In this document: piece by piece, positions 6,121 through 36,647 of the stretch
Position numbering within the stretch: the stretch's first letter is position 1
Layout: the number at the start of each line of letters is the position of its first letter
Assembly: GCA_903813345.2 (NCBI GenBank)
Contig: CAIIXF020000005.1
Coordinates: 7,257,375 to 7,321,374, forward strand
Source: Owenia fusiformis
Lineage: Eukaryota; Annelida; Polychaeta; Sabellida; Oweniidae
Reading direction: 5' to 3'
DNA: 64,000 nucleotides
Notes under the pieces: model-generated
Told to the model about the DNA's origin: nothing
The model's database searches: none
What the model saw: only the letters and a program-made list of their open reading frames with translations
Translations under genes and position numbers: made by a program

Positions 6121-7420
6121 GTAAATATTCAGAAGGATGACATTACTTTGGGTTGTATGTTAGACTGCATTGGCAATTTTCTTAAGTTTACTTTATTTTG
6201 TATTTGACATCATTTATTCTATCCAATTCGGTTTTATGAATTATAATTATAACCTATAGCAACTTCATTTTATATTTGCCTTTGTCTTCAATTGCAAGCC
6301 TTTACTAGATGTGGAAGTCAGTCTCAATTGTCATAATCTTCTGGCACTAATTTTTCCATTCATTCATTATTCATTATTTGTGGATTTTTAGTTCCAAAAC
6401 TATTTCATACAATGTCAAAATGACTTGAGTAGCACTTATTTATTTGGCTTATTCCAATTTAGATGTGTATGCATGATTTTAAATAAGATAAGATTTTTAT
6501 AAAATTTTATAATTGAAAGTAATCTTATATTATATTTTTGATCGACTAATATCAGTTCAATTCCTGATTACATAAAAACATGTCATTTACTTAATACATA
6601 CACTAAAACATGTCTGATTCACCCAAGAAAAAATATTTGTGAAAACTAAAACGGGAAATTTTTACATTTGTGAGGATAATACTACTTCCCCCAAAATGTT
6701 CAAATTTCGTTTTAGTATCACACCCCTCAATTATTATTTCCACCTATCACATTGTTACAACTTCATGGCCCAACTTGCATAGCAGACCTCCTTGCATCAA
6801 AAAATTAGTGCTTTCAGTAGAAAAGCAATCCTATCATTTATATCATAATGTTAAACCCAAATTTTAGTTTGATTTGACGCATAATTATTTTACACTGTAT
6901 ATTGTATGTATACTTTTCAGGATACAAGTACATCTCATGCATTTTTAAAATTATGGTGCTATATCTTGGTAAAACCTTCTAAATTGAAGACTGCCTCTCA
7001 CAATTAGAGATAAACACCTTATAAGTTTTCTGAGTCCGTGTTGAATCAAATGGAGAAAAAATGTTAAATGTCCACTTGTTATGATGTTTACTTTACAGAG
7101 GTTTTACTGGAGTGTAATACTATGTTTACTGTAGTGTAATACTATGTTTACTGTAGTGTAATACTATCTTGTCTGAAATGTAACTCAAATACATGTAACT
7201 GTTCATTTGTTACTATATTAAACATGATTTGGAACAAAGGAATGTTATCCTGATCAGTCAGTATGTATGTCATACATAAAGACACATGTCTTGCTATATA
7301 ATGAATATGTGTCCTACAAACTGACACATGTGTGATGAATATGTTATATGTATACCCAAATGTTTCTAACACAGAAATATATGTGTCATATACACTGATA
7401 TGTTTGTCCTATATTTACAG

Positions 7421-7591
7421 GGTGAGGCACTAAGACAGAGCCTGTTGACAAGGTACTATGGTAAAGAGCACCCCCGAGCACATAGGGACAGTATACATGA
7501 GGCCCCAGGCCCGGCCAAATCATCACATACCAGTGGGGGACCCGGCTCAGTCATGTTGAGTAGAGCAGAGATGACACTTTCTGCAGTGCAG
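7421..7591 (+). CDS. ITPR: ITPR exon: GEALRQ linker around the vertebrate PKA site
   Basis: This exon is 57 codons, phase 0, with acceptor ATATTTACAG and donor [24 protein letters not shown] matches vertebrate GEALRQ...RYYG. Vertebrate ITPR1 carries a PKA site (RRES) shortly after this. Here the aligned sequence is [10 protein letters not shown], so the arginine pair is interrupted by histidine. The rest is a Ser/Gly/Pro-rich loop ending [13 protein letters not shown]. Confidence 0.93.
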
Positions 7592-13500: not shown

Positions 13501-16500
13501 TTATCATCAAACAGAAAAGTTCCTAGCAGGGCAAATATAAATTATCTTCTGGAATTGAGAAAGGGAAATAAATGTATATTCCCCTCCATCTTCATGAATT
13601 CTAGCTACGTATGGGATAAATATTTGACCTATCTAATGATCCTTATTGTTACACAGGTGTACTGTGTAAGTTGTGACATACATGTACTGTATAAGTTGTG
13701 ACATTAAATGTACTTTATAAGTTGTGACATTCACATTCAATGTACTGTGTAAGTTGTGACATACATGTTCTGTATAAGTTGTGACATTCACATTCAATGT
13801 ACTGTGTAAGTTGTGACATACATGTTGTATAAGCTGTGACATTAAATGTACTGTATAAGTTGTGACATTCACATTCAATGTACTGTGTAAGTTGTGACAT
13901 ACATGTACTGAATAAGTTGTGACATTCAATGTACTGTAGAAGTTGCGACATTCAATGTACTGTAGAAGTTTTATCATCCAATGTACCTTGTACTGTATAA
14001 TACATGTATGAATGATTTTTGTAGGACTGTACTGTGAGCTACTATTGCATGTATTTGTGGTGTTTCAAAGATAAGTGTTACAATGTACTGAGTCTCTCTC
14101 CAGTTACTTGACTTTGTCTTTATGGACATGTTAACAAATTTCTCATGGAAAAGTATCAATGAAAAGTCTACCATTTCACTGGATCAAGGCTGTTCTTTTG
14201 AGTTTGAACACTGGTCAATCTATCTCGTGCGTGACTGTCCATAAGCAATGGTGTCACATTTTTGATCATGTGGATCAATCAACTAACCTCTTAATTTCCA
14301 AATGTTTATTGGCTCCATCATTTTGTTTTAAAAAAATCATGTAACATAGATAGTACCAAAGGTTGTTAACAATCAATGTTACACTTATGGGAAAAGCATA
14401 TTTGTCAAGAACCCATAGAACTATTTTATTTGTTTTATGTTTCAGTTGTCTTTATGTTATTGTCAATATGTTGTTTTCTACTTACACAGGAAAACACCAT
14501 GTCACATAAACTTGATGAGGCAAACATTCTGTTTTTATGTCACCACCAAAGGTTGTGACATATTGTTATCGTCTACAACTTTTTGGAGGAAAGTGTTCGC
14601 TGGTTGGTGTTCTATGGTCAGCATTCGCCTCTAGGTTGTCTGCGTCTGCCATATGTAGCAAACATTTTGCATGTTAATGCCTTGTTTGTATGATGTGTTG
14701 TCAATGTGTTGTTGCAATCCCAGTTAGACAAAATATCAATGTTTAAATTATAGGTAGTCTGTTCAATGTTTGTGTTAGCTCAATTTTGTGTCATCTTTAT
14801 GTTTATAGCAACATGTATGAATATTACCTCATTGATATACAATTATTATTTAGCCTGCTCTATCAGTTCCTATTAGATACATTTTGTTCCTCTTTGTAAT
14901 AGTCTAGCTATATTGCTTTCTCAGTTTCATGATAGATAAATATATTTTAAGTATTAAAAAACAGATAGATATAGATAAACAGATGTTTATAATTGTATAG
15001 GCTATGTACTAATAAATAGTAAGACTCACTAAAGCTTTAACTAACATAAAAGTTTAATTATTGAAGATATTTTTATTACATTAATTCTAACAGGCTTTTC
15101 AAATGTAGATCAGTAGTTTTGAAATATACCAAGTAAATGTACTGTATATCAAAAAGAGATGATTTCTTTAGAATTGAAAAAATAGGATTATGACCCAATT
15201 TTTCAAATTTCTGAACATTTCATCTCTGTTATTGTTCCAATTAATAAATGCACGTTTTCCTTTTGTTTTGTCCAATCTGTGATGTCCATTGAACATGTAA
15301 GTCTGAGTTGATACAATTCCATCAATATATGTTTTTGCTGGTTATGTCAGGTTATGTTTTACATTACATGTATATTACTATATTAGGCTGTATCATACAG
15401 GGTGGGCCAAAAAAACAATACCCGAGTTTCAGGATGGATATCATATGATAAATGTAAAATCATGCCATGTATTATATATAATTTTAAAGATAAATCATTT
15501 TCTAACAATTTGACACCATTCAATTGAAAACAGTTGTTTTCTTGTGGACTGAGACGCCAATATTAACATTAGGGGTGTCATGAATCATTCATCTTTAAAT
15601 TTGGGGATTGGTTTTTGGCCCACCCTGTAGTAGTACCGGGGAGAATTAGGTTGTTAGATCTTCAGAGTCTTTTCTTTTGCAATTAACATTTTGGGTTTGA
15701 ATTTGAGAGGAAAATGTATTAAATGGGTTATACATGATTAAAAGGTATCAATGATTAAATGATCCACTTCTAATATGTGCACTCTACCCTTGTGTTTTTG
15801 TAATATAAATCTATTACATAATAGACTTAAGAAGGGTAAAGAAAGTAAAATGTCTAATTTTTATTTTTTGGAGCTGTAGTATTATGTTAATTTAATGCAC
15901 AGTTCTTCAATTAAGCCAATCATCGATTCAAGAGTTGCCCAAGTAGTGCAATTTGCACAATATATACAGTGAAACCTGTAAAGTGGAACATCTCTAGAAG
16001 TGGAACACTTTTCTGAGTCTCAAAACCAATTGACTTAATGACCTCAATAAGTAGATCACCTTCCAAGTGGAACATAATTTAGAGGTACCAAAGATGTTCA
16101 ACTTAAACAGGTTTTACTGTATAATATATGTATGTACAATACATACATATTTATTCACATCTTACTATATTATTTACTGATCATGCAAAATAAAAACTTA
16201 TGACAGTGTTCTCCCCATGATATTTTTAGTAGGTTCAAAATTGTGATGTCACAATTCTGAACAAAATATGTCAATATATTTACATGATTTTCCTCATTTT
16301 TAATGTGAAATAATGTAAATTCAAATTGGATGCTAGCCTATTTTTGAATGTTAAGAAGATACTACCTGCTTGTTTCAATCCTGGGGAGACTACTGAAATG
16401 AATACCAGTAGTTTCAGCTATATAGGTGACGATTAAAGAAAGAAAATTGAAATTAAATAAAGAAATTTGATGAAGATGGAAAACATACCACAGACCACTA

Positions 16501-19500
16501 GAGTTATGTAAATAACAGCTTATTGATGGATATATTTGCATTTTAGAGAAAATATCACAATGAAAGCATATTCATATGTTGCTGAAATTGAAGATTTCTA
16601 AAATCTACAGTTAGGTTGTTACATTATGGTGGAGACCAACAGGGTATTGGTAAATTGTATTCCAATGTATTCACTGAAGTGCCATCTTTATTTCTTCTAC
16701 TCCACTTCTTTCATATACTAATATATGCAACATGTTGGCCATACCTTTAAGATAGTGTATGATTTTTCAAATTATAGGTCGATGTCTGCAAACAGGCCTT
16801 CTACCAGGACAACAGTGATGAGGCAGAGATCGATGATGAAGACGAAGAGGATGAAGAGGAGGGTGCATCTCCAAAAGATGTTGGTCATAATATCTATATT
16901 CTCGCTCATCAGTTGGCCCAACATAACCAAGACCTGGCTGAGCTGTTGAAGCCTGGCAATGGTGATGCTACAGGGGACCAAGCTTTAGAATACTATGCAA
17001 AACACACTGCTCAGATTGAAGTAAGAATTATGATTATTTATCAATGATTTTTGCAGCCATTATTACCACATATTGACAATTAGCCACATTAATGTCTTAT
17101 GATAAAGTTGCAATATACTTACACACTAATGGCAACTAAATTAATTGATCAAAGATTCATTGATAACATGTAAATACAAAACTCATACCCAGATATGTGT
17201 TTGTGACTTTAGATTGTTCGACATGATCGTACGATGGAACAGATAGTGTTTCCTATCCCAGAGATCTGTGAGTACCTGACAGAGGAGACGAAGACCAAAC
17301 TCTACGTCACTGCAGAACGAGATGACCAAGGGAGTAAGGTCACAGACTTCTTCGAACAAGTGGATGATTTATTTGCTGAAATGAAATGGCAGAAAAAGCT
17401 AAGAGGTATGGATGTACATGAAACATGTCGAGCTAATTGTGTGTGTAAATGTGTGTATGAATGCTACCTCTGTGGGAACAACATTTTTGGGGTTGTCCAG
17501 TTGGCCGAGCCATCCAGAGCACTGAACATGCTGGGCTAGGCTCTGTTGCCTTAACCATGAGGTCATGAGTTTGAGATGCGTGAGCTCTATGCATTTATTC
17601 ATCCATTTTGTGATTAATTACTCCATAATTCAATTTAGAATAGAATGGGTATGTAAATCGAGCAATTGAAATTGAGAATGGTCTTTATATTCCAGCAAGC
17701 CCAGTGCTATTCTGGTTTAGCAGTCACATGTTCCTGTGGAGCAGTATTACTTTTAACCTTGCGGTGCTTGTCAACCTTATCGTGGCCTTCTTCTACCCCT
17801 TTGATGAGAATAAAACAGGTAGGTTCACCCTTTACTTCAACCCTCATCCTTCCCCACCCCTAAACATTATGCAAGACTTTGAAATATTAGGAATATTCAA
17901 AGGGTTTGTGGAGCTGTTGATCTCTGGATTTATGGATCTGCATTGTTAAAGGATGACTGAATTAATAGAATTGTGATTTTGCTTCTGTTAACATAAACAT
18001 TCTGCAAGATACATTTTTCACACTTTTACAATGCACATGTACAGTAAATTTTATACATCCAAACACCTCTCTAATAACCCAGATGCGAGTAAAAATAATC
18101 TTGATTTACGTCATTAAAAATTCAAAATTCAGTCAAAGTAATATCATATTAGAAATGTGGTTTTAAAAAGTTTTTATCAACTTTGAAAAATTAATTTTCT
18201 TTGAAAATGTGACTTCTAGCTCGGGGAGATTCCTCATAGACCCAATGCTATAAAATCACAAAAAATGAAATATCTTTTCTTTTAGTGGACAGATAATATT
18301 TTGCTTTACTGGACATATTTTCATTAGTATAAGTATTAGGCACATAAGGGTTATATGAAAATTGAGCCACTTAAATTGATAATATTCAAGTTTAAGGAAA
18401 CTTTCTTATATACCTGCCATGTTAATTGACCCGAATCAGCCACCTGGTGGTGAAACTGGTAACTACCTACTCGCATTTGGGTAATTGCAACACCTCTCAA
18501 TGTGAACACTATTTTCAGGTCCCAATTTTCCATTGATTCCCATGTTATAACTTTGAAATGTGAACACCAGTTCCAGTATTACTATATGTTCAGATTAGAC
18601 ATGTTTTACTGTATTTAGATAAGCTAAGCGTCATCTTCTGGACAATTCTCTCAAGTACATATATAATCTCTTATTTCAGAAATCAGCCCCAGGCTGTCTC
18701 TGTTAATCTGGACATCTATGTTGGTGTCCCTAGCCATTGTGATTACCCTCCCCCGACCCTCAGGGATCTGGACTCTAACTGCTTGTATAATACTCCGGAT
18801 GATATTCTCTATAGGGGTGGAACCAACCCTATGGATCATAGGCATACTCAATGTAAGTATGAGTTACACTAAATGTACCTCATATAATGGGCCTACTAAT
18901 AGTAGTCTTAACTTAGGGTGTATTGAACAAACAACATGGAGTAAGTTAGTTGCAAACTAAACATCTTTGGTTTTCACCTACATTTTACAAAAATACTCAG
19001 TGACACAAAACTCAGCGGTGGTTGTTGAATTTTCAAACTCAAGTTTATTCAAATATAGATATATTTTCTAATGTACAGGGTGATCCAGAAGTAATGATCA
19101 AAGGTGCAACAAAGACTGTAGAGAGAAAATTTGAAATTGTTTATGTTTTCTGAGCTATCAGGTCAATATTTGACTTAACACCTTCTTTGACATACCTATT
19201 TTCTTGAAATGTATGTATAAACTATCAATTTCAGCATTAAAAAGTGTAAATTCAGTTCAAAGCTTTTATAAAGGGAGTCCCACTTACTAGTATATATTTT
19301 AAGATCCACCACGTTTCAAGAGGAATATCAGCTAAAATAATGTTCATCCAGGTGGTTTCTTTGTAGATAATAAAAATATATGTTAGTCTTGATGAAATAT
19401 TTTTTGACACTGGTCGATGATCGTTGAATGGCCCCCCTGCACCAATTGTTGCACCTTTAATATCTAAGAATGAAGTTTCTTCTATTTGATTGGTTTATTT

Positions 19501-22500
19501 CATGGCTACTATAATAGCACTTCTGTGTTTTCTTTTTTCCAGATAACCAATAAAACAGTGTATCTCATCAGTCTGATGGGCAACAGAGGCACATTTACAA
19601 AGTCTTTCATGGCCATATTGACTGACTTTGAGTTCATGTACCACTCCATGTATTACTTAGGTCTGTGTATTTGTGCCATGTTTATACATGAGTTCTTCTA
19701 TAGCTTACTGGTAAGTATGTAGGTATAGTGTACTGAAGGGGAGGGATGTTTTCAGGGGGGAGCTACTGATTATACTGGTATGAATACTGTAAAATATCAA
19801 GGCAGTAAAATGTAGTGAAATTAAGAAGTATATTGCAATGGAAAAATTAACGTTTAGGACGTCATTCCTGGGGATGAATGTAATTTGAAAACAAAAATTG
19901 ATCTATGTATGTAAAAGACAAACAATTGATAAAAAGTCTTTAGACATACATGTAATATTAATTACTCAATGCATTTATTTATAATTATTCATTAAAATTT
20001 ATCAATTGCATTATACTTTTAATTCAAATGAAGATTGAATTAACTTTTTGCTTTTATGCATTTAGATCAGGAAGACACTATTGCTCAATAAATTATTTGC
20101 TTTCAGCTGCTGGACATAGTTTACCAGGAAGAAACTCTGCTCAATGTGATCAAGTCAGTGACTCGCAACAGTCGCTCCCTCCTCCTCACAGCCGTCCTGG
20201 CTGTCATCATCATTTACATCTTCAGCATCATTGGCTTCATCTTCTTCAAGGAGGACTTTCAGATGGAGGTCGACATTCTCGAATCTACAGGCATTGATAA
20301 AAGTAAACCAAATTTCAAATATTCTAATATGTTTGTGAGGATATTCTTCAAATAGAGAATAAATATCATTAAGGAACCTCTTAACAACCAAATACTTAGT
20401 CTAGCTACAGGCACTTGTGAGGCCTCCTCTAACTACAACTGTGTTGAGTAAGTAAACTAGTTGAGGGGGTCCACAGTCTTGAAGCAAGACTACCAAATAT
20501 GTTTGTTTTGTCACCTTCCTTTGATTTGATTTGATGTAAATTAAAGCCCCAATGTATAGATATGGCGCATGCTACCTTGACACAATTATCCCCCATTTCA
20601 CACCTTGCATATGTTAAACATTTGCAGATGTTGTTGAAGCAGCTACAACTGTTGCAGCAACAGCTGGTGCTACAGCAGGGACATGTATGGCCAACAAATC
20701 ATGCCCTCCATCAAAACCCACTGGTCCTGAGGTGCCAGAAAAGAACCATAGTGATACATTACAAGATGCAGTAAATAAAACAGGTGCGTATGATTGATTC
20801 AAATTAAGGAATATTTTGGTATTTTCTTTTAATCCCATAAGCAAAATTAATGAAACCAACTTCAAAACCCATATTTGAAAAATGTATTAAGTATTTTCAT
20901 TTGAAAATCTCTCCAAGAAAAAACCTAATGTATCATACCTGATCAAAAGAGTTAATTTTAATCACACTTGTGAAGTGTTACTTTACTTAATGTGCCGTCA
21001 GAGTTAAGGCAGCCCAACAAGAAATTTTGTAATCAAGATCGTTTATCCATTTAACATGAGATCTTAACAGGTGCAAAAGCAGACTTAAATTTGATAAGGT
21101 TTTAGGCGTGCTATTTGTGTCTTGTTGTTTTAGAAAAAATCATCTCTGACTTAGCAGCCCATGATGATGACCCTGAGAAAGAGGACCATTGCAGTACACT
21201 TATCATGTGTATCCTCACATCTCTTAATGAAGGACTCAGGAATGGAGGCGGGATTGGAGATATCCTGAGGAAACCTAGTGTCGATGTACGAATAATTTTT
21301 GCTTCTCGTAAAAACATCCTCGAATCTTATATTTTGTTTTGATCCAAGTACAATTGTGATTTTTTTCAACACTAAGAATTCATCACATCGTTTCACAACA
21401 CATATTATAAAATAGGGAATAGAACTTGAACAAAATCTAATTTACATTTTTCAAGATTAATGAGAGGGTATTTTGCTCACACAGTGATTCTATGGGATCG
21501 ACTAGGTGTCGGTCCTTTATTTATATGTTTAAATTCTTTATTTCTAGGAGTCCTTGTTCATGGCACGTGTTGTGTATGATCTCCTCTTCTTCTTCATTGT
21601 TATTATTATCATCCTGAACCTCATCTTTGGTGTCATCATCGACACATTTGCTGACCTTAGGAGTGAAAAACAACAGAAAGAAGAAATATTAAAAAATACT
21701 TGTTTCATATGTGGTAGGTTATTGTTCTGTTTTCCATTGGTTTGTGTGTGGTTTTGTCTTTAAATCCTCTGGGTATTTAAATACTGCCATATTGCATCTA
21801 ACAATGTCAACTTGAAATTATTTTTAATAAAAAAGTCTTCATATTATGACTTAAATCAAAACTAATTGTAATATTTTATCCCCACTCACATCTCAACTGA
21901 ATATAAAAGAACTTTATATAATTATTACCCTTTGGCTTATACAAGAATTGATACATATCTATCCCCGATTTTAAACTGACAATTATAACTTGTAATATTA
22001 TATTAGTATAAATATCTACAAAACACTCATGTATGTTCAAATACATACTAAATGAAACGTTTATTCTTTTCCAGGCTTAGACAGAGGTTCGTTTGACAAC
22101 AAATCAGTGTCATTTGAAGAGCACATTCGCACTGAGCATAATATGTGGCACTACTTATATTTTATTGTGTTGGTCAAAGTGAAGGATCCAACTGAGTTCA
22201 CAGGGCCAGAGAGCTATGTGTATGCTATGGTGAATGTAAGTAGAAAAGCATTAACACCAAGTGTCCTTGCTAAAGTTTTGACAATGATTCATTTGTTAGC
22301 TCATTGTCAAATGACTTGCAGCCCATCTGTATTGAGTGTGTTTTTTGTTACTCCTTACAGAATGGAATAAGAACTTTTTGAGCATTATATTAAATAGGTC
22401 ATAATGGTTCAGTTTGCAGTATTAGATTTTGCTATAACATGAGACAGTAAGATTATTTCAATATGATATGCTAAGTTGCAAAACTAAACTGAGCCAAATG

Positions 22501-25500
22501 ATAACACCTAATTAAACATTTACATACTCAATCCATTCAATTAACCGTTATACTATTTTTAGAATAAAAACCTTGACTGGTTCCCACGCATGCGTGCAAT
22601 GTCCCTAGCAGCAGATGACGGTGAGGGTGAGCAGAATGAATTGAGGAACTTCCAGGCCCAGCTAGAGAGCACAAACAAACTCGTCTTAACTCTCTCAGGG
22701 CAACTCTCAGAACTCAAAGACCAGGTGGGTAAATACATGTGAAGGATTGTGGTTGTCATTTGACTAATGAGGTATCTGGTTGTCATTTGACTAATGAGGT
22801 ATCTGGTTGTCATTTGACTAATGAGGTATCTGGTTGTCATTTGACTCATGCCTGGGTCACTTTTGCTCCGATTCATCAGCCAGTGTCCAGCCAATTGAGT
22901 ATTTTGTCAAAAATTGTATTTGGGCGCTGGCCAACAAATCAGAGCAAATGTGACTCAGGCATTTCTAGTATGTATAAAAATAGGAGTGGACTGAGAACTC
23001 CATTTGACTATTTGTAATTCAGTGATTTGTCATCAGTCATTTTATTGGACAGATACTGACCACATATATATTTTCCTATTTTATTATCTTTTATCAATCA
23101 AATAGAACTCATCATTTTAAAAGAATATTAAATCTTCTGTTATGAATCTTCGTTTCACTTTTTGTTTTTAAAGTTTGAACAGCATAAAGTGATGAATTGT
23201 AGTATTAATTGACTAAATGTACTTTCAATATATGTATAACAATTGGTTTAGTTGGGTTTTCCTGCTTGCAATTTTTTGATTATTGTTGCTTTTATCATTT
23301 TAATTGTGTCGCATGTTTAAGGGTATGCTAAATTACTTAATAAAAGGGACTTGTTTTTAAAAGTAGGAACACATGTTAAAGTGTAATAAAATGAAAGAGT
23401 TGTTTTATAATATATAACTTTTGGAGTGTTACTTAATAACCAATCACATTTCAGATATCAAAATGCTATATATTGTAATTAATCGGCTTGTGAAAGTGAA
23501 AATTCAAATAATTACACTATTTTTCTTTTAAAAATTGACTGTACATGAAAAATATATCTCAAAATCATTTCCCTTTTATGAATAAGTCCTTGTAGAAGGT
23601 GCATGCTATTTAAAGGTTGTATCCAATATTGAAATTTTTTTCTTTTCTTGCCTTTTTGGACATAACTTACATTTAAAGGCAGAATCAGGTATAATGAGCA
23701 ACATTTCTATATATTTGACTCTACCTTTACTAAAGGGGTAGTATGCCAATATGAAATGCAGATTTGTGGAAAAAGTCATCCAAATTTTCAAGAGCCTTTA
23801 GATGTGAAAATTTCAAACTGAGATACAACCTTTGGGCATGGTAATGCATGAGTTTTCCTTTATATGTTCCTATGTTGAATCCTAGATGGTTGCAGAAATG
23901 AGACAGAAGCAACGGTTGAGAATCTTACCCCTGGACTTTTCAAAACCAGTTGATGAAAGCATAGATATGATTCAAAAGAGACGGTTTAGCTTAAAATAGT
24001 TATGTGAACACCTTTTGTACTCATTGAAAGTGTTCACATTCTAAAGCCCCATTTACACTGACCAGTCTTTTTGTAGCGGTTTTCATCAGACTTCACTGGA
24101 CTCCATTGGATTTTTTAAAAAAAGACTGATCAAGACTAGCTGAAGTCCAACCTAAGATTCATATTAAGACCTGGAAAAGACCGGTGGGCTTTTCTCCCAT
24201 TGGAAATACTCAGGGGATCAAAAAAGACCAGTCAATGTAAATGGGGTTTAAGTTGTAAAGGAAGGCTAAGTGGAATAAGTAGCCTAACTTTTCTTACCTT
24301 AATATTTGGCATGCCTTGCCTTTATGTTTTGGTCTTCTATTGATGTGACAGTTTAGTGACCAAAGTCTGTCCAATATGTTTTTGTAGACATGTGTTCAGA
24401 AAATGTTCACATATTCAGATTTTATACTTTCATATCAAAGGAATTTGTTGGAACACATTTTTAGAAAATATATTTTTGCATTTGGAAAGAGCCCCAGTAA
24501 AACCTAATTTGTACAGTATTATGTACTTATTTTTATTTGTTAGAAAAGTATTATATTTTGGTCAAAGGGCATTGTATTTTATTTTGTGCTGTACATTTAT
24601 TCCCAATATTGGTTAATACCCAAGGTGTAGAGTTTTTTATTTGCTGGTTGTAAATGCAGGATATTTTCATTGGTGCAAAATCAGGTTTATTTGTAGTTTA
24701 TCAGTAACATATTGAGTCAAGTATTGACTGTTAATCTATATTGAATATTGATTCGATTGACCAGGTTGTAAGACAAAGGCTAAAACAAGAGCATTGTGGT
24801 CTGTCGAAGATATCTGAAATCGCGGACCCTCGTTCCCCTGCCCCTTACTTGCAGAGGTGTCGTAGAAGACTCTCTTCTATCAATCTTAACTGATTGTTGA
24901 CTCCCGAAGAGGTGAACTGGTTCAACTTTACATCTCACAAGGATGGAGTATCAAGACTGAGCTATTAAGAATAATATCGAAATAAGTCATTTTTAAAGTA
25001 TTATGTAGTCAGATTTATTTACATGTGATATGTGATGGTTAAGGTTGATGAATTCCCGGTGTTTGATTTTATAATTGCCCCATCACTGCTAATTATTCAA
25101 TGTAGCCAATGTTTATATATTCAAATCATTATCAAGGAATGTGATTCTAGTGGTCTGAAATGCACATATAAATGCCCATGCAGTTTGGGTGACAAGTACT
25201 ATTACTTACAAATGTATGCTGCTGTTACAAGAATTGGGTGTTCATTGCAAACAATTTACTACATATGTACATACTACATACTACATATCTACATATTTAC
25301 TATACTTTCCTGTATGATTCTTTCATTATTTGCAATTCTTGTACAATGTAATAGCATGTTTGCACAGTATTATGGTTTGATTGCACAATATTATGGTTTG
25401 ATTGCACAATATTATGGCATGATTGCACAAAGTAATGGCATGATTGCACAGAGTAATGGCATGATTGCACAAAGTAATGGCATGATTGCACAAAGTAATG

Positions 25501-25964
25501 ACATGCTCTCACAATGTTATGAGATGCTTGCACACTTTTATGGCATACTTGCCCAACTTTATGATATGCTTGTAAAATGTTATGGTGTGCTTGCATAATC
25601 TTGTTGCACACTTGCATGATATCACCAGGTGGGATCGCAAAGGTTGTCTGCAATGGGGGACTAAGTCCATACATGAAATTCAGAATCCCAATTACTAACA
25701 AAAAAGTAACATTATTTTAATCTGAATTTCATGTTTTAACGTAATTCCCCATAGCGGACATATTTTGCTATCCCACCCTGTGGACTTGTCTGGTAGCTGT
25801 ACTATGTTTAGTAACATGACTTTTGTTGGTCTTTATTTTCTATTTGCACTTTATTTCAAGCTTCATCTTCTCGCTATTTTCAGATGCAGGAACAGCGCAA
25901 ACAGAAGCAGCGGATTGGACTATTGAACACACCCTCACTTCCTGTGATGGCAAATTCTAACTGA
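7421..25964 (+). CDS. ITPR: Inositol 1,4,5-trisphosphate receptor, C-terminal half
   Basis: About 20 phase-compatible exons encode the distal half of an IP3 receptor, the tetrameric ER calcium-release channel. Order: cytosolic linker (7421-7591); helical regulatory region (8078-17405); S1 (17696-17818); S2-S3 (18680-18852); S4 (19543-19710); S5 (20107-20302); luminal loop (20411-20783); pore with GGGIGD (21134-21285); S6 (21548-21713); CFICG/HIRTEH zinc finger (21713-22235); and the tail helix (22563-22724), followed by one of three last exons. Hallmark strings include [56 protein letters not shown] and [17 protein letters not shown], all near-identical to vertebrate ITPR as I remember it. 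The IP3-binding half is not in this window; the region to its left holds an antisense gene. Family assignment is firm; single versus multiple ITPR paralogues cannot be judged. Confidence 0.97.
7829..7967 (+). mobile_element. GTAGCCAGG-type hairpin MITE, copy a
   Basis: Inverted ends GGCCCGTAGCCAGG and CCTGGCTATGGACC enclose two GGGGTTCACTTTT-like stretches and a poly-C run. It matches the element at 43741-43944 over most of its length. It lies in an ITPR intron. Confidence 0.75.
8078..8209 (+). CDS. ITPR: ITPR exon: CHLDKEGAS helical segment
   Basis: This exon is 44 codons, phase 0, between TTTTCAG and CAA|GTAAGT. It reads [16 protein letters not shown] and [15 protein letters not shown], almost the vertebrate sequence. 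It belongs to the armadillo-like regulatory solenoid of the receptor. Confidence 0.95.
8555..8686 (+). CDS. ITPR: ITPR exon: [12 protein letters not shown] segment
   Basis: This exon is 44 codons, phase 0, between CTTGTAG and CAG|GTATAA. It reads [20 protein letters not shown], then [16 protein letters not shown], matching vertebrate ITPR. It continues the regulatory solenoid. Confidence 0.95.
8702..8779 (+). repeat. Triplicated hairpin end of the TGTCACCAC MITE family
   Basis: Three tandem units of about 26 bp, each with ATGTCACACAAGTGGTGACA-like sequence, itself nearly palindromic. The same palindrome forms one end of the MITE family found at 50383, 58853 and elsewhere. Confidence 0.6.
9073..9154 (+). 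CDS. ITPR: ITPR exon: histidine-rich insert
   Basis: This exon is 82 nt, entering in phase 0 and leaving in phase 1 at AAGA|GTAAGA. It encodes [20 protein letters not shown] followed by KEEHAHK: ten histidines in 27 codons, many in a GH alternation. The vertebrate counterpart at this position is a lysine/aspartate-rich, poorly conserved linker. The flanking exons are well conserved, so this is a local insert in a cytosolic loop. The GH pattern resembles metal-binding His tracts, but metal binding is inference. Confidence 0.85.
9462..9748 (+). CDS. ITPR: ITPR exon: acidic linker to [20 protein letters not shown]
   Basis: This exon is 287 nt, phase 1 to 0. The first part ([20 protein letters not shown]) matches the vertebrate RDQLLEASAATRKAF region. 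A charged loop follows, and the exon ends with the highly conserved [20 protein letters not shown]. Donor is CAG|GTACAA. Confidence 0.94.
10168..10347 (+). CDS. ITPR: ITPR exon: [18 protein letters not shown] core
   Basis: This exon is 60 codons, phase 0, between TTTTGTAG and CAG|GTATGA. It encodes [20 protein letters not shown] and the nearly invariant [18 protein letters not shown] block, part of the RIH-associated domain shared by IP3 and ryanodine receptors. Antisense ORFs over this exon are shadows. Confidence 0.96.
11011..11142 (+). CDS. ITPR: ITPR exon: GPCHENQN segment of RIH-associated domain
   Basis: This exon is 44 codons, phase 0, between TATATTTCAG and AAG|GTAAAT. It reads [20 protein letters not shown] and [19 protein letters not shown], near-identical to vertebrate ITPR. 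Confidence 0.96.
11347..11442 (+). CDS. ITPR: ITPR exon: [13 protein letters not shown] segment
   Basis: This exon is 32 codons, phase 0, between TTCTTCAG and TTG|GTAGGC. It reads [20 protein letters not shown], then [12 protein letters not shown]. In vertebrates the next residues are VEVIKKAY; here they come either from the exon at 16778 or through the candidate cassette at 12417. Confidence 0.96.
12417..12479 (+). CDS. ITPR: Candidate 63-nt ITPR cassette exon
   Basis: This is a 21-codon phase-0 exon between TTTGTCCACTAG and CAG|GTTGCG. It encodes [20 protein letters not shown] plus Q. It shares the DV-KQA pattern with the start of the next exon (VDVCKQAF), suggesting an old partial exon duplication. 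Inclusion or skipping both keep frame. Its donor is weak, as expected of an optional exon. It is GC-richer than the surrounding intron. Confidence 0.55.
12531..12643 (+). mobile_element. CAGGGTGG-type MITE with TA duplication, copy a
   Basis: A 113-bp element from CAGGGTGGTCCACAATT to GGGACCACCCTG, flanked by TA on both sides. The TA target and the termini suggest a Tc1/mariner-type parent (inference). Confidence 0.75.
13097..13114 (+). CDS. Candidate 18-nt ITPR microexon
   Basis: TTTGTTTGTTAG is followed by six codons (DQKTPS), then a donor-like GTAGAA, phase 0 on both sides. If the donor is ignored, a stop follows three codons later (V E stop), giving a possible truncating terminal exon. 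It lies in the same intron as the 63-nt candidate. Support is weak. Confidence 0.18.
13640..13985 (+). repeat. Complex minisatellite (GTACTGTRTAAGTTGTGACATW)
   Basis: Units of about 25-35 bp based on TGTACTGTGTAAGTTGTGAC alternate between versions ending ATACA and ATTCACATTCAA, giving a longer composite period. Chance minus-strand ORFs ([10 protein letters not shown] repeats) come from it. It lies in the large ITPR intron 12480-16777. Confidence 0.85.
14530..14690 (-). mobile_element. TGTCACCAC-family MITE, intronic copy
   Basis: TATGTCACCACCAAAGGTTG at its start and CATTTTGCATGTTAATGCC-like sequence at its end are the reverse complement of the copies at 50383 and 58231. Confidence 0.55.
15398..15627 (+). 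mobile_element. CAGGGTGG-type MITE with TA duplication, copy b
   Basis: A 230-bp element with inverted ends CAGGGTGGGCCAAAAAAA and TTTTTGGCCCACCCTG, flanked by TA on both sides. No ORF. Confidence 0.8.
15967..16119 (+). mobile_element. Pogo/Tigger-like MITE, copy a
   Basis: A 153-bp element with ends CAGTGAAACCTGTAAAGTGG and AACTTAAACAGGTTTTACTG, flanked by TA on both sides. The CAGTRAAACC terminus and TA target resemble pogo/Tigger-type transposons. Confidence 0.8.
16778..17020 (+). CDS. ITPR: ITPR exon: acidic loop and [12 protein letters not shown]
   Basis: This exon is 81 codons, phase 0, between AAATTATAG and GAA|GTAAGA. It starts [18 protein letters not shown], has an Asp/Glu run (about 14 of 17 residues acidic), then [19 protein letters not shown] and [13 protein letters not shown]. 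It forms the end of the cytosolic regulatory region leading to the membrane linker. Confidence 0.96.
17213..17405 (+). CDS. ITPR: ITPR exon: linker to the membrane domain
   Basis: This exon is 193 nt, phase 0 to 1, between TTGTGACTTTAG and AGAG|GTATGG. It reads [20 protein letters not shown], then [13 protein letters not shown] and EMKWQKKLR. This linker couples the cytosolic solenoid to the channel in the known receptor structure. Confidence 0.96.
17487..17590 (+). repeat. tRNA-like SINE remnant in ITPR intron
   Basis: TTGGCCGAGC at 17501-17510 looks like a pol III A box of tRNA-Leu/Ser type. About 60 bp downstream, GAGTTTGAGATGCG resembles a decayed B box. No intact cloverleaf is apparent, so this is more likely a tRNA-derived SINE head than a tRNA gene. 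Confidence 0.3.
17696..17818 (+). CDS. ITPR: ITPR exon: first transmembrane helix (S1)
   Basis: This exon is 123 nt, phase 1 to 1, between TATATTCCAG and ACAG|GTAGGT. It reads [20 protein letters not shown], then [17 protein letters not shown]. This aligns with vertebrate [20 protein letters not shown], the S1 helix in the ER membrane. Confidence 0.96.
18071..18488 (+). mobile_element. Non-autonomous DNA transposon, family 1 copy a, with 9-bp target duplication
   Basis: A 418-bp element with terminal inverted repeats AACCCAGATGCGAGTA (left) and TACTCGCATTTGGGT (right). It is flanked on both sides by AACACCTCT (18062-18070 and 18489-18497), a perfect 9-bp target-site duplication. A second copy lies in reverse orientation at 57401-57830. 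A 9-bp duplication suggests a Mutator-like origin, but no transposase is present. It lies in the S1-S2 intron of ITPR. Confidence 0.85.
18680..18852 (+). CDS. ITPR: ITPR exon: S2 and S3 helices
   Basis: This exon is 173 nt, phase 1 to 0, between CTTATTTCAG and AAT|GTAAGT. It reads [20 protein letters not shown] (S2), then [20 protein letters not shown] (S3). The vertebrate order TAMLISLAIVIALP...ASTILRLIFSVGLQPTLF is kept. Confidence 0.95.
19076..19460 (+). mobile_element. CAGGGTG-type MITE, right terminus missing
   Basis: The left end TA|CAGGGTGATCCAGAAG is the terminus seen in other CAGGGTG elements of this window. Internally AAAGGTGCAACAA (about 19104) is inverted at 19446-19459, but the matching outer right terminus is absent. 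It lies in the intron before the S4 exon. Confidence 0.5.
19543..19710 (+). CDS. ITPR: ITPR exon: S4 region
   Basis: This exon is 56 codons, phase 0, between CTTTTTTCCAG and CTG|GTAAGT. It reads [20 protein letters not shown], then [20 protein letters not shown]. Vertebrate: [20 protein letters not shown]...[10 protein letters not shown]. The conserved vertebrate NCGTF cysteine is arginine here (NRGTF). Confidence 0.95.
20107..20302 (+). CDS. ITPR: ITPR exon: S4-S5 linker and S5
   Basis: This exon is 196 nt, phase 0 to 1, between GCTTTCAG and AAAA|GTAAAC. It reads [20 protein letters not shown], then [20 protein letters not shown] and [14 protein letters not shown]5 and the start of the luminal loop match vertebrate ITPR. 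Confidence 0.96.
20411..20447 (+). CDS. ITPR: ITPR small luminal exon with conserved C-x7-C; junction off by one base
   Basis: After GCTACAG the sequence reads [12 protein letters not shown] in phase 1, then GA|GTAAGT. The spacing of the two cysteines (C-x7-C) and the final NC equal the vertebrate luminal motif CRVESGENC, whose cysteines are reported to bind ERp44. A conventional donor makes the exon 37 nt and puts the next exon out of frame (stop after two more codons). A 36-nt exon would join both following exons in frame. Skipping the exon also keeps frame. So either the splice is unusual, a base is extra (allele or assembly), or inclusion is meant to truncate. Confidence 0.6.
20628..20783 (+). 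CDS. ITPR: ITPR exon: Ala/Thr-rich luminal insert
   Basis: This exon is 156 nt, phase 1 to 1, between CATTTGCAG and ACAG|GTGCGT. It reads [20 protein letters not shown], then [15 protein letters not shown]. It carries two more cysteines (C-x5-C) and an NKS glycosylation sequon in the ER lumen. Being symmetric, it could be skipped without a frameshift. It is low in complexity and little conserved, as in the vertebrate loop. Confidence 0.85.
21134..21285 (+). CDS. ITPR: ITPR exon: pore helix and selectivity filter
   Basis: This exon is 152 nt, phase 1 to 0, between TTGTTTTAG and GAT|GTACGA. It reads [20 protein letters not shown], then [19 protein letters not shown] corresponds to the vertebrate filter GGGVGD. 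The HC-x6-C pair before the pore helix is also conserved. Confidence 0.96.
21548..21713 (+). CDS. ITPR: ITPR exon: S6 gate and first half of the zinc finger
   Basis: This exon is 166 nt, phase 0 to 1, between TTTATTTCTAG and GTG|GTAGGT. It reads [20 protein letters not shown], then [20 protein letters not shown] and TCFICG. S6 and the linker-domain cysteines are intact. Confidence 0.96.
22075..22235 (+). CDS. ITPR: ITPR exon: zinc-finger histidines
   Basis: This exon is 161 nt, phase 1 to 0, between TTTTCCAG and AAT|GTAAGT. It reads [20 protein letters not shown], then [15 protein letters not shown]. The two histidines of HIRTEH complete the C2H2-like fold begun by CFIC. Confidence 0.96.
22563..22724 (+). 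CDS. ITPR: ITPR exon: C-terminal coiled-coil helix
   Basis: This exon is 54 codons, phase 0, between CTATTTTTAG and CAG|GTGGGT. It reads [20 protein letters not shown], then a helix with leucine spacing ([26 protein letters not shown]). It ends exactly where the vertebrate last exon ([14 protein letters not shown]) would follow, and it is the common splice source for three candidate last exons. Intron retention would add only five codons (VGKYM) before a stop. Confidence 0.95.
22750..22850 (+). repeat. 27-bp tandem repeat just inside the last ITPR intron
   Basis: Three full copies (22750-22776, 22777-22803, 22804-22830) and one partial copy of TGGTTGTCATTTGACTAATG + AGGTATC. Each full copy contains the donor-like GAG|GTATCT. 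The repeat starts 26 bp after the true donor of the preceding exon. Confidence 0.9.
22848..22962 (+). mobile_element. Short hairpin MITE
   Basis: A 115-bp element whose ends ATGCCTGGGTCACTTTTGCT and AGCAAATGTGACTCAGGCAT are inverted, with similarity reaching about 40 bp inward on each side. It directly abuts the 27-bp repeat. It has no coding capacity. Confidence 0.7.
23612..23833 (+). mobile_element. MITE next to the first alternative ITPR terminal exon
   Basis: A 222-bp element with imperfect inverted ends: AAAGGTTGTATCCAATATTG on the left and AACTGAGATACAACCTTT on the right. It ends about 50 bp before the acceptor of the exon at 23886. A clear target duplication is not visible. Confidence 0.55.
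23886..23999 (+). CDS. ITPR: Alternative ITPR terminal exon A (37-residue tail ending RRFSLK)
   Basis: After a pyrimidine-rich stretch ending GAATCCTAG, a phase-0 frame encodes [20 protein letters not shown] and ends IQKRRFSLK with TAG. Its start aligns with the conventional tail exon ([14 protein letters not shown]): the M-x-x-x-x-R/K-Q-K-Q-R pattern is shared, so it looks like a duplicated last exon. KRRFS fits a basophilic (PKA-type) site. I noticed no AATAAA closely downstream, so transcript evidence is needed. Confidence 0.6.
   Translation: MVAEMRQKQRLRILPLDFSKPVDESIDMIQKRRFSLK
24045..24248 (+). mobile_element. PIF/Harbinger-like MITE
   Basis: A 204-bp element with inverted ends AGCCCCATTTACACTGACCA and TGGTCAATGTAAATGGGGTT-like sequence (right end GTCAATGTAAATGGGGTT). 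It is flanked by TAA on both sides (24042-24044, 24249-24251). A 3-bp TWA duplication suggests PIF/Harbinger. It lies between alternative tails A and B. Confidence 0.75.
24765..24893 (+). CDS. ITPR: Alternative ITPR terminal exon B (42-residue tail with RRRLSS)
   Basis: After GATTGACCAG a phase-0 frame encodes [20 protein letters not shown], then [10 protein letters not shown] and [10 protein letters not shown] with TGA. The first residues keep the R-x-R/K-x-K-Q pattern of the normal tail. The stretch is clearly GC-richer than its surroundings, as are the firm exons. RRRLS is a PKA-type consensus. The pyrimidine tract of the acceptor is weak and I noticed no nearby AATAAA. Confidence 0.5.
   Translation, partial: VVRQRLKQEHCGLSKISEIADPRSPAPYLQRCRRRLSSINLN
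25350..25605 (+). repeat. 21-bp minisatellite in the last ITPR intron
   Basis: About twelve units of a 21-bp repeat such as GCACAAAGTAATGGCATGAT+T, best conserved at 25390-25500. Since 21 is a multiple of three, both strands stay open and chance ORFs arise (a seven-residue AQSNGMI period on the plus strand). It lies between tail B and tail C. Confidence 0.9.
25884..25964 (+). CDS. ITPR: Conventional ITPR terminal exon C
   Basis: After TCTCGCTATTTTCAG a phase-0 frame reads [20 protein letters not shown] and ends VMANSN with TGA (26 residues). Vertebrate ITPR1 ends [18 protein letters not shown]..., so this is the orthologous last exon. It has the strongest acceptor of the three. Confidence 0.95.
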   Translation: MQEQRKQKQRIGLLNTPSLPVMANSN

Positions 25965-27190
25965 TGCAGCGGTTTTTATTTGGTGCTTGGCCACAATGAG
26001 TGGAATTTGGGTCTACACTCAGTATTACTAACAATTTATTTTGTGGTGAGGGAGTGGAGATTCAATTGCACATTTGCTGTTCACCAAGTGTTCACCAAGT
26101 TGAAAATGTACTTACCTGGGGCACCTAGGAAATGTAATATCATACTTTGGGCACCTGATAAATGCTCTTTGTCATATGGGAAATGTTGATTGTGCTACAG
26201 AGGCTCATGGAAAATGTTACTTGTACCATGGGAGGTGCATACAAAATGTTACTTGTGCCACGCAAGATTAGTGGGATATGGACTCAATAATATGTTATTT
26301 CTCCTCTAGGGATATATGATTTGAGGTTCATTCTGACACACAGTTCCAAGTAATAGCTCAACATTACCTGTGCCTATCACCATACAGGTTGTAGTTTCCT
26401 GTTGCTGTGTGTCATACTGAGTAATTTGTTAGTGATCCTGAAGAAGTGAAATGAATTTTAATTCAACCTTTGCAAAATACTAGCATGAGGCATTTGTAAC
26501 ACTTGGTCTTATATCAAGGTTATTTTGGTGAGACCATTTAAAGTTAATTATATGTTTAACGTCCTGTTCGAGGTTAAATTTAGGAGGATGACAGATGAAT
26601 AATAATAAAAAAACAACTTTTTTTATTTATTGCCTTTGGATTTGCTACAAGAACATATCTGAGTTCTTGAAAAGTTTTTGTTCTCAAAACCTGCCTTAAT
26701 ATTAGGAGAGGGGATGTTAAACATATTTATGTATTTCCTTTGAATGGCCTAAAAGGCAGGGTAACAGTTCATCAAACACAGTATCTTCTTTATGATTTAC
26801 TAATACAAAATCTAGGAAAATGGTGGAAATTATAATTAGTATCTAATATGGCATTATTTGATTGTTTGCATTGCACAACTTACTGACAACTGTCTGAATT
26901 TGTGACTCTATTATGAATAGCTCTCGATTTGAAGTTTCCATTATGCAATGGTCTGTTTTTGATACGACTGAGACTTCTGATTTCTAGGAAATCATTCTCT
27001 TTTAGATGAACAATGATCTGCGATCGTACATAAGTTACAATGATTTCAAAAACAGACCTCAGAGAAACTTGTATATATAAGTCCAGCACTTTTCAACTGC
27101 TGCAATTCTTTTGTTAACACAAATTTGCTTTATTACAGAGCTGCTTTTTACTCAAAGTGTTCAATAAAGTCTGTTAAGCTTTATCTTTTG
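25965..27190 (+). other. ITPR: Probable ITPR 3' UTR
   Basis: No coding potential follows the TGA at 25964. The first AATAAA in a plausible context that I noticed is at 27163-27168, with another inside an A-rich run near 26608. Between 26170 and 26260 there are loose repeats of ATGTTACTTGTGCCA. Which poly(A) site is used cannot be told. Confidence 0.4.
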
Positions 27191-27539
27191 TAACATTTTA
27201 AATCAAGTCTACCTCATTTTCAACCTAACCATCCTATTGTCATTGTGTATGAGTTTGATTGAAGTATCGTTAAGAGAAACAAGCTTTGATTATAGTAAAT
27301 CTGACCCACTTTAGTAAAGGTTTAATAAAAGACACTTAAAAGTGTGAAAACATCTAAATGTGAAACCCCAGTCTTTTTTATTAAAAATTGTCATGTACAT
27401 GTATTGAAAGATGATAAGTTGTTTCTGTTTTACAGTATATGCATATGTTCTATTGTGTAAGTGTTCCCGTAATTCAAATACCAGAAGAAGTTTTTGTCAG
27501 TGGTGCCGCACCCGTGAGTGTGGAACATATATTTTCTAA

Positions 27540-27885
27540 TACCGTAGATACACTTATTTTGACGCTTCTTAATTTGACGGATTTGCTCAATTTCAAATAT
27601 TGGTGGATATTTAATTTGGCGGACTTAGGACTGAAGCTTAATTTTTGTAGATGTTTATGTCATTAGGACAGGTGTTTACTGAGATATTCCCTGTATTTAA
27701 TTATTTGGAATAATTTAGAATTGATGGCATGTTGACAGGAAAAGGGGCCCCTGGAGTTTAATTTCTGTGCAGTGCATTGGACAAAAATTCAAAACTGAAA
27801 TTTGACGGATTTTGAATTTGGCGGATTTTCTGAATCCGCCAATCCGTCAAATTAAAACAGGAGCCAAATTAAGTGTATCTACAGT
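27540..27885 (+). mobile_element. Non-autonomous DNA transposon with GTAGATACACTTA termini
   Basis: About 346 bp with inverted ends ACCGTAGATACACTTATTTT and AAATTAAGTGTATCTACAGT. Near the right end, further short inverted repeats (GGCGGATT...AATCCGCC) could fold back. No ORF. Confidence 0.7.
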
Positions 27886-29875
27886 CATTGCATTTATGTT
27901 CGTGTATTGACTATATAATGGCTTAATAGGCCAAATGTGTTTACAGTGCCTGGAAAATATGCAAATGGAAATATAAACATGCAATTTCTATAATAGATTA
28001 GAAAATGCCAAAAACTGAAACAAAAAGATTGAACGATTATCATGTAAAACAAAGTTATGTTCTTTGCATGACCCATGCATTTAAACATATGCCACATTTG
28101 AAAATAATGATAAAATCAAACCAGTGCATGAATATTGTTTTGCACTGTAGTTTGTTTGTTCAAAAAGCTTTAACTTTTGCCAGTATTTTTGTTACCGGTA
28201 TTATGTTTTGTCATCGACTGAATTTAATCGGAACTACTGTGCTACAACCTCTCAACATGGGCTAATATATTATATACCGATAATGCTGAATGGATTGTTC
28301 GACTATTTAAAAGTTTGGGAATGTCTTTATATTTTGTTTAATGGATTATTCAGCCTTCTTATATTTCTAAAGAGAAATTAAAAAATGATAGACATGATTT
28401 ATGAATTAATTTAATTTATTTTGAGATGTGAATAATTTATGTTTTGTAATGTGTGTAAGTTGATATGTTTGTTTTCTTTTAATTTTATCATGTAAATGTA
28501 CCTAAAGCCTAATTATTTACCTTGTGTATTACTTATTGGGTATTACTATTGCAAGTGATAAGAATGACAGATTCAAATATGGCATTTTAACCCATTTTGT
28601 AGATGATATTTATCAATAAATAAAAATATATTAATGTATCCATTTACAGTAAAGAAATAAGGAATGTGGTTCACCCCACCCCTTGAAATGTAAGTGAAGA
28701 TAAAATTTGCATCTTAAAATTATGGGATGTTTAATTTATTCTTGGGAGTTTCCTTGTTGCCTGAGACTGTTATGTAACATAGGATAATAGGCATGGGTAG
28801 TATTAATTGGGGTTTATTCCAAAAAATGAAATAAGGAATTTAAGAATCTATACAGGGTTGACCATTTTTTCATGATCTTATGTTATTTTTACATTTCTAA
28901 TCCAAATGATTTTGTTGAAATTGATTTAGCAATCATAAATGGCCCCTCCCCAAGCCCTAACATAGTTACTATTAGTATGTTAATATGGGCATTATATGTT
29001 GATTTTCTGTAAATCTATAAATTATATATATGACATAATAATTACGATTATAAAGACAAAGATGTGTATTTTATTTGTATATTTTAATTGTATAAAAGAT
29101 AATTTATTATATATGCAAAATTATTACATAATATGTGTTTCTATTGTATTAATGGAAGTATGCTTCTAGCTCAATAGATGGCATGTTATGTTTTGTGTCT
29201 ATAGCTCCATCTTTTGAGAGGCGACTGTACATTAATGATGATAGTTAGACAATAGTGGATTGTGCAGTATAAATATGTGTGAAACTTTCAATAATTTTCA
29301 CAATATGTGAAATTGGTTCAATAAATTTTTCAAAAATATTTAAAAACCAAAATATGTTTTGTTTAAATGATGTTGTGTATACTAGCCATGAGGAAATTAT
29401 ATATCGTGATGAGGGCTCATGATAGTATTACCTTCTTCATGGAGTCGCCAAGAATCTGTAAGGCATAATGATTCAAACTACCATATATGGCCGGATATAT
29501 TAGTGAGATGTTTTAATTTTGGTGGCTCATTTTTTTTTTAAATTTTATTTGTGATTGTTTCAATGAAGGGAGATACATGTACATTGGTTTATAACATAGC
29601 ACATGTTTTAAAATTTTGGTAAGGAGTAGGTGGGACAAGGGTCTATGGATTTGAATGGGAAATGGTATAAGTGTTTACCCTATTACTCATTTTAAATACA
29701 TACACCACATTTTCCCATTCATATTCTATAATACATTTCATAATTAATCATTTTATACAGGGTAACCATATCACCTATTCTCCAAGCAATCATTTTCCCC
29801 AAATTGTCCACGTTCAGGAAAACCTTAGTTAAGCATCACCATGGAAACCATATTGCATGTATTTCATTAGTATAA
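27886..29875. other. AT-rich sequence without a visible gene
   Basis: Downstream of ITPR. Short ORFs here lack domain signals. Isolated transposon-like termini (TACAGGGTTGACC at about 28852, TACAGGGTAACC at about 29757) are the only recognisable marks. Confidence 0.5.
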
Positions 29876-31636: not shown

Positions 31637-33380
31637 ATACAGCAATGCACTGTTCATGTACAATAGACCAATATATTGCTCCTATACAATACAGCAATGC
31701 ACTGTTCATGTACAACAGACCAATATATTGCTCCTATACAATACAGCAATGCACTGTTCATGTACAATAGACCAATATATTGCTCCTATACAATACAGCA
31801 ATGCACTGTTCATGTACAACAGACCAATATATTGCTCCTATACAATACAGCAATGCACTGTTCATGTACAATAGACCAATATATTGCTCCTATACAATAC
31901 AGCAATGCACTGTTCATGTACAACAGACCAATATATTGCTCCTATACAATACAGCAATGCACTGTTCATGTACAATAGACCAATATATTGCTCCTATACA
32001 ATACAGCAATGCACTGTTCATGTACAACAGACCAATATATTGCTCCTATACAATACAGCAATGCACTGTTCATGTACAACAGACCAATATATTGCTCCTA
32101 TACAATACAGCAATGCACTGTTCATGTACAACAGACCAATATATTGCTCCTATACAATACAGCAATGCACTGTTCATGTACAACAGACCAATATATTGCT
32201 CCTATACAATACAGCAATGCACTGTTCATGTACAACAGACCAATATAATGCTCCTATACAATACAGCAATGCACTGTTCATGTACAACAGACCAATATAT
32301 TGCTCCTATACAATACAGCAATGCACTGTTCATGTACAATAGACCAATATATTGCTCATATACAATACAGCAATGTACTGTTCATGTACAACAGACCAAT
32401 ATATTGCTCCTATACAATACAGCAATGCACTGTTCATGTACAACAGACCAATATATTGCTCCTATACAATACAGCAATGCACTGTTCATGTACAATAGAC
32501 CAATATATTGCTCCTATACAATACAGCAATGCACTGTTCATGTACAACAGACCAATATATTGCTCCTATACAATACAGCAATGCACTGTTCATGTACAAT
32601 AGACCAATATATTGCTCCTATACAATACAGCAATGCACTGTTCATGTACAACAGACCAATATATTGCTCCTATACAATACAGCAATGCACTGTTCATGTA
32701 CAACAGACCAATATATTGCTCCTATACAATACAGCAATGCACTGTTCATGTACAACAGACCAATATATTGCTCCTATACAATACAGCAATGCACTGTTCA
32801 TGTACAACAGACCAATATATTGCTCCTATACAATACAGCAATGCACTGTTCATGTACAACAGACCAATATAATGCTCCTATACAATACAGCAATGCACTG
32901 TTCATGTACAACAGACCAATATATTGCTCCTATACAATACAGCAATGCACTGTTCATGTACAATAGACCAATATATTGCTCCTATACAATACAGCAATGT
33001 ACTGTTCATGTACAACAGACCAATATATTGCTCCTATACAATACAGCAATGCACTGTTCATGTACAATAGACCAATATATTGCTCCTATACAATACAGCA
33101 ATGCACTGTTCATGTACACCAGACCAATATATTGCTCCTATACAATACAGCAATGTACTGTTCATGTACAACAGACCAATATATTGCTTCTATACAATAC
33201 AGAAATGCACTGTTCATGTACAACAGACCAATATATTGCTCCTATACAATACAGCAATGCACTGTTCATGTACAACAGACCAATATATTGCTCCTATACA
33301 ATACAGCAATGCACTGTTCATGTACAACAGACCAATATATTGCTCATATACAACAAAGCAATGTTCCATTCATAAACAGC
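31637..33380 (+). repeat. 52-bp satellite, about 33 copies, with a 624-bp higher-order duplication
   Basis: Unit: CAGCAATGCACTGTTCATGT + ACAAYAGACCAATATATTGC + TCCTATACAATA. The pattern of unit variants (AATAGA versus AACAGA, a TATAATG variant, a GTACTG variant) repeats after 12 units: the TATAATG variant recurs at 32241 and 32865, exactly 624 bp apart. Units contain the palindrome CAATATATTG and the hairpin CTGTT-CATGTAC-AACAG. All three plus-strand frames are free of stops, producing a meaningless 531-codon ORF. The last unit decays at 33340-33380. Confidence 0.97.
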
Positions 33381-36281: not shown

Positions 36282-36647
36282 CTAGGGGTGGTCTGGCACA
36301 CTAGCACTGTACGAATAAAATCTCAAACCCGAGTGAAAATCCCTATATCGGCTTTTCCATAAAAGTCCGACAAACCACATTGAAACTCCACTTCCAATTG
36401 AGTTCAGCGCACATAATAATATTAAATAATCTTTGATGCTTGTCATGACAACATCGCAACTTTCAACTTCGTTGAAATCGTAAGTTTTTGTATCTTGTTC
36501 ACACCGACATGTCTGAGTGATTGTGCTATTTGTGCCAATGTTTGTGCACTCATTAAAACTGGCGATCATGTTTGCTGGAATTCCACAGAATACGCTGGAG
36601 ACCATACAGACGAACAGACAGCAGAATGATAGTAGAAAACACGTCGA
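36282..36647 (-). CDS. SSPN: Sarcospan-like last exon: TM3, large loop, TM4
   Basis: This exon is 366 nt (121 codons plus stop), phase 0 at the TATATTTTCAG acceptor. It reads STCFLLSFCCLFVCMVSSVF (helix), a cysteine-rich loop with NST and other sequons, YLILLCALNSIGSGVSMWFV (helix), and LLWKSRYRDFHSGLRFYS just after it. Cysteine placement follows human sarcospan. Confidence 0.75.
   Translation of the reverse strand, partial: STCFLLSFCCLFVCMVSSVFCGIPANMIASFNECTNIGTNSTITQTCRCEQDTKTYDFNEVESCDVVMTSIKDYLILLCALNSIGSGVSMWFVGLLWKSRYRDFHSGLRFYSYSASVPDHP

Follow-up and report, generated by a model that had tools for sequence, protein, structure and literature searches.

The window, a stretch of 64,000 nucleotides from the annelid Owenia fusiformis, contains the 3' part of an IP3 receptor gene on the forward strand. 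The gene was identified by matches to the PDB entries of IP3R1-3 and by the Pfam domains RIH_assoc and Ion_trans in P0004, a partial Owenia fusiformis IP3 receptor model of 1068 aa in the database. P0004 spans positions 7400-25964 and was mapped onto 20 exons and 19 introns, and every junction is GT..AG. Receptor matches (Lingula and others) extend at least 90 kb upstream of the window. P0004 begins partway through the receptor and, as the gene continues upstream, this Owenia model appears to be truncated or split. The receptor gene also holds a nested gene, an open frame with a vWA domain (PF00092, E 4e-15) at 556-1182 of the minus strand, which lies antisense within an intron of the receptor gene, between the receptor matches at -6214 and 7400.

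The last intron of the receptor gene is 22725-25883. The penultimate coding exon (22563-22724, plus strand) matches P0004 at 100% with exact junctions; its end at SELKDQ in phase 0, proposed in a sequence-only reading of this DNA, was thereby confirmed, together with the donor CAG|GTGGGTAA at 22725. The true last coding exon (25884-25964, plus strand) encodes 26 aa followed by TGA at 25962-25964. It had been read as a vertebrate-like tail, and it is the canonical one; P0004, the sole Owenia model listed, ends with it via 25884, and the acceptor at 25884 is the best among the 319 AG sites of 22730-29500, with a score of 12.4. The penultimate exon joined to this tail matches PDB IP3R1 with an E value of 1.7e-29, and the canonical last exon is common to Owenia and canonical IP3R genes. 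A second IP3 receptor gene as a source of the tail sequences was ruled out, since a search of the 498 Mb Owenia fusiformis genome with a C-terminal query found this locus only, with two matches. Read-through from the penultimate exon into the last intron would stop the protein within 22725-22742, giving a possible short tail that resembles the V-initial ends of seven vertebrate-type models.

Two further open frames lie within the last intron on the plus strand, and the sequence-only reading had interpreted them as additional last exons. Frame A (23886-23999) encodes 37 residues followed by TAG at 23997-23999, and frame B (24765-24893) encodes 42 residues followed by TGA at 24891-24893. The positions, translations and lengths given for these frames and for the frame at 25884 all hold; each of the three is in phase 0 and open to its own stop. 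However, because 34 of the 319 AG sites in 22725-29500 open a phase-0 frame of at least 37 codons, an open frame by itself is weak evidence, and frame length was dropped as an argument for A or B. The likeness of these frames to the receptor tail was scored with BLOSUM62 over the 14 residues after each AG, taking the best of four canonical tail-start forms, and the background comprised every AG on both strands of 264 kb (27,566 sites).

The true exon scored 68, frame A 37, the best unrelated AG site 27 and frame B 24. Frame A is thus second only to the true exon among the 27,566 AG-preceded positions, and it scores 31 against Owenia's own tail alone. The intron holds 155 AG sites, among which frames A and B rank first and second for tail likeness. 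A score like that of A would be expected by chance about 3e-5 times among 155 AG sites when the tail of the distribution is extrapolated from every position and frame, and no more than about 155/27,566 = 0.006 times by direct count. In a milder control, none of 400 Markov introns reached the score of A or of B. Gapped local protein alignment of frame A with the Owenia tail was equalled by 14 of 2000 shuffles, and DNA alignment of the first 60 nt of A with the true exon by 2 of 300. We looked for a wider DNA duplication around A or B, and the flanks align no better than shuffles. Searches of the genome matched A and B once each, so both were rejected as repeat copies, the search giving lower bounds for repeats. 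These results make frame A a well-supported homologue of the last exon, in the form of a diverged duplicate, and the best explanation is that it is an older tandem duplicate that has since diverged. Frame A and the true exon differ at 17 of 42 bases (6, 4 and 7 by codon position). Among 20,000 simulated neutral, stop-free copies with the divergence of A, 312 kept an equal or higher protein score, and the same simulation for frame B (24 differences) gave 128. This hints at protein-level selection on both frames, in a test biased toward selection by construction, as the frames were chosen for their likeness.

Frame A is flanked by two stretches (23612-23833 and 24041-24252) that carry terminal inverted repeats (27 nt, 85% complementary, in the first; 32 nt, 84%, in the second) and resemble small DNA transposons; tails A and B lie outside both. 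A genome search with 23600-23890 returned only the self match, and no multicopy family was seen in it.

Frame B is a different case. Its in-register score of 24 is matched by four unrelated AG sites among the 27,566, three of which are copies of one repeat, and the number of such scores expected in the intron is about 0.02 by direct AG count or 0.004 by extrapolation. The in-register likeness beats most chance, if marginally. Gapped local alignment of frame B with the true tail was not significant (370 of 2000 shuffles as good), nor was DNA alignment of its first 60 nt with the true exon (188 of 300), and frames A and B show no mutual likeness (1153 of 2000 shuffles as good). The earlier claim that both frames start with a related basic pattern is borne out for A and doubtful for B, which did not pass the shuffle and DNA tests. 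Good support for a duplicated last exon exists for A alone; the triplication proposed before is a conjecture, with B at most a putative copy. Chance offers a good explanation for the likeness of frame B, which is most likely ordinary intron rather than a third copy of the last exon.

The most exon-like feature of frame B is a strong acceptor within it, which the sequence-only reading overlooked. cctcgttcccctgccccttacttgcag forms a good acceptor at 24855 (score 7.55, eighth of 319) that keeps the frame of B, and its use would turn the GC-rich middle of B into a polypyrimidine tract and leave a tail of only 12 residues. With a candidate donor, GAG|GTGAAC at 24912 (score 5.89), it would delimit a cassette of 57 nt (24855-24911, plus strand) with the stop ending at 24893. 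The acceptor at 24544, in the same intron, is stronger (10.25) yet opens no frame that resembles the tail, so acceptor strength by itself is no proof.

Whether the frames could be used depends first on their acceptors, which were scored with a position matrix built on the 19 proven acceptors of the gene. The proven acceptors score 3.3-11.9 (leave-one-out). Frame A scores -1.51 (rank 90 of the 319 AG sites) and frame B about 0.0 (-0.03, rank 73), below all 19; of the starts considered for these frames, only the shorter one at 24855 has an acceptor comparable to the others of the gene. Both frames had been described as acceptor-preceded, which is true of the AG itself, but not of its quality. 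Another yardstick is a duplicated-looking exon pair upstream in the same gene, with acceptors of 8.5 and 7.3 against -1.5 for A and 0.0 for B. These two tandem copies of one IP3R exon lie at -90600 and -85691 in window coordinates (L004 and L005), roughly 91 and 86 kb ahead of the window start, and the second copy reads FLLNVRLDYSIGTLLTVFKRDLRTSN. Measured from these acceptors to donors of compatible phase, the copies are 97 and 91 nt long; the donor of the second is weak (3.0). In Lingula, the model P0006 carries two such exon copies in series, and the pair is a candidate for mutually exclusive exons common to annelid and brachiopod.

Codon usage cannot tell A or B from intron and was rejected as a discriminator. 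Of 3422 background frames, 24% reach or exceed the codon score of A, 19% that of B and 1% that of the true exon, and 4 of 28 chunks of true exons score no better than A. Poly(A) signals were also considered. On the sense strand, AATAAA and ATTAAA are absent from the 3213 nt between 23390 and 26603, where the antisense strand has 12, and variant hexamers occur, for example at 24467, 24496 (AGTAAA) and 25167 (TATAAA). Past the true stop, AATAAA/ATTAAA signals begin at 26604 and recur at 27163, 27324, 27380, 27851, 28377, 28615, 28619 and 29320 (26604-29325, plus strand). This gap is suggestive of a shared 3' end, a hint that we do not press because the 264 kb contain five signal-free gaps that large, counting this one.

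Both frames have RRxS near their ends, frame A ending with KRRFSLK. RRx[ST] occurs in the last 12 residues of 11 of the 3422 background frames, A and B included, and in 1.0% (A) and 2.7% (B) of shuffles of their own residues. A common origin of the two ends was not supported by alignment, as 157 of the 3422 background frames match the end of A as well as B does. Because RRxS was noticed before it was tested, the motif is a lead only. RRxS suits basophilic kinases such as PKA. In the match to PDB IP3R1, the serine of RMRAMS is common to Owenia and IP3R1, and we take this serine to be S2681 of IP3R1. In a figure legend, S2681 of IP3R1 is labelled as a site for AKT (PMC3708286).

Relatives of the two tails were sought in protein databases. 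Tail A had no hit at E <= 10 among receptor-length proteins, searched with one sequence per 90% cluster, and tails A and B joined had none at that threshold among proteins of about 43-138 aa. Since isoforms that differ only in the tail can hide within such clusters, the absence of relatives is weak evidence. Among the 120 homologues listed of 2195, the canonical tail start M.EQRK is present in 111, and none contains any of the four words chosen to mark tails A and B. Most of the 120 are vertebrate ITPR1, which leaves invertebrate tails sparsely represented. The other nine end differently after LKDQ, and seven of these begin with V, as intron read-through would. The nine include the ITPR1 models P0048 (EEN; RefSeq-style isoform X11) and P0017 (EMKSRF); the nine ends are unrelated to A or B, and they belong to predicted models, not to proteins that have been shown.

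Alternative last exons can arise by tandem exon duplication. Frame A resembles this general class in being a tandem copy of a terminal exon with the same phase and its own stop, but it differs in its poor acceptor and in that its splicing is putative, and B is a doubtful copy. In the same channel family, splicing diversity is reported in Tribolium as an optional IP3R exon at residues 922-929 and the RyR exons 19a/19b (PMC4204029), although the IP3R site is far from the C-terminal tail. According to a review, the splicing of insect IP3R lacks functional studies (PMC8301844). No title or abstract start among the matches listed mentions alternative C-terminal tails of IP3R, in a literature source whose coverage mostly leaves out subscription journals. 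In the one paper on record there that names both ITPR1 and an "alternative last exon" (PMC5605627), the latter phrase occurs solely within a reference title.

Taken together, the data are best explained by one true last exon at 25884 and a diverged duplicate, frame A, that is at most a minor or decaying exon, while frame B is likely ordinary intron; we hold this explanation with middling confidence. The weak acceptor of frame A would lose to the very strong acceptor at 25884, which would leave A as a low-level alternative end at best, or as a relic in decay, and its use as a tail is probably low. When A is used, splicing would join 22724 to 23886. Since no splice junction need follow the stop of A, the A-spliced RNA could be polyadenylated at the shared signals that begin at 26604, and the missing intervening signals are therefore compatible with use of A. 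The resulting receptor would still have the coiled coil and the basic QKQR stretch, and its last residues would give way to a longer tail ending in KRRFSLK. It can also be argued that A is a regulated alternative last exon in some tissue or stage, giving a two-way choice of tail with a KRRFS site of the basophilic-kinase type, and that B is noncoding. The likeness of A and its intact frame agree with this, as does a protein kept more alike than the DNA differences suggest (312 of 20,000, in the biased test described above). Regulated exons often have weak acceptors, a further point in its favour. The A acceptor of -1.5 at rank 90 of 319, the absence of AATAAA or ATTAAA before 26604 and the lack of a relative of A among the receptor-length and the 43-138 aa proteins weigh on the other side, and we consider a regulated exon A a tentative alternative and not a likely one.

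The other alternatives give frame B a role or deny one to frame A. A triplication that made A, B and the true exon alternative last exons would give three receptor tails. It would account for A and B being the top two of the 155 AG sites of the intron in tail likeness and for the RRxS at both ends, but B did not pass the shuffle and DNA tests, A and B are alike neither as a whole nor at their ends, and both acceptors are weak. This origin is distinctly improbable, and three-way tail switching is possible but unlikely. In its fullest form, three tails would be made by choice of the 3' splice site with a shared 3' region, a proposal that we regard as quite doubtful; if it were true, the extra tails would keep the coiled coil and each would add an RRxS site of the basophilic-kinase type near its end, and splicing would determine if the central stalk of the channel is open to phosphorylation at that point. 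Frame B might instead contribute only the exon 24855-24911, sometimes included in an mRNA that runs on into the true last exon and is polyadenylated at the signals of that exon. The acceptor of this cassette is within the proven range and its donor scores 5.89, and RNA decay is not expected for a stop 18 nt upstream of the next junction. On the other hand, chance alone would supply about 1.2 acceptor/donor pairs as good in an intron like this one, which also holds the stronger acceptor at 24544 with no tail-like frame, and such a cassette seems improbable. Finally, A and B might both be random intron frames, the likeness of A being an accident of basic, Q-rich codons. The many AG sites with frames as long, the weak acceptors and the codon scores, which are ordinary for background frames, would fit such an accident, but a likeness as high as that of A is expected so rarely (about 3e-5 by extrapolation and at most about 0.006 by direct count) that chance is very unlikely to explain frame A.

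The preferred reading, a true last exon with a diverged duplicate, bears on a disputed matter. In two cryo-EM papers, the C-terminal domain of IP3R is a left-handed helical bundle or coiled coil near beta-trefoil 2 of the neighbouring subunit, and the papers disagree on whether the end of this domain is needed (PMC8930994, PMC6274648). One of them states that activation was not diminished by deletion of the residues that contact the neighbour, or by a swap with the end of RyR (PMC8930994). A review describes enzymatic cross-linking via the C-terminal tail of IP3R and names protein 4.1N as a partner (PMC4887697). As the role of the tail end in gating is disputed, a natural gene in which just the residues beyond the coiled coil are exchanged would supply a ready-made experiment. 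If it goes unused, frame A would be a leftover of exon duplication; even as a relic, it would show how such a tail swap might begin.

Two other features of the window lie downstream of the receptor gene. On the minus strand, 36282-36671 is an open frame whose CD20-like match is weak, reaching 21.9 bits against a curated cut-off of 27.9. At 31771-33395 there is a long tandem repeat whose overlapping open frames encode a repeated peptide over as many as 534 residues; the repeat looks like a minisatellite rather than a gene.
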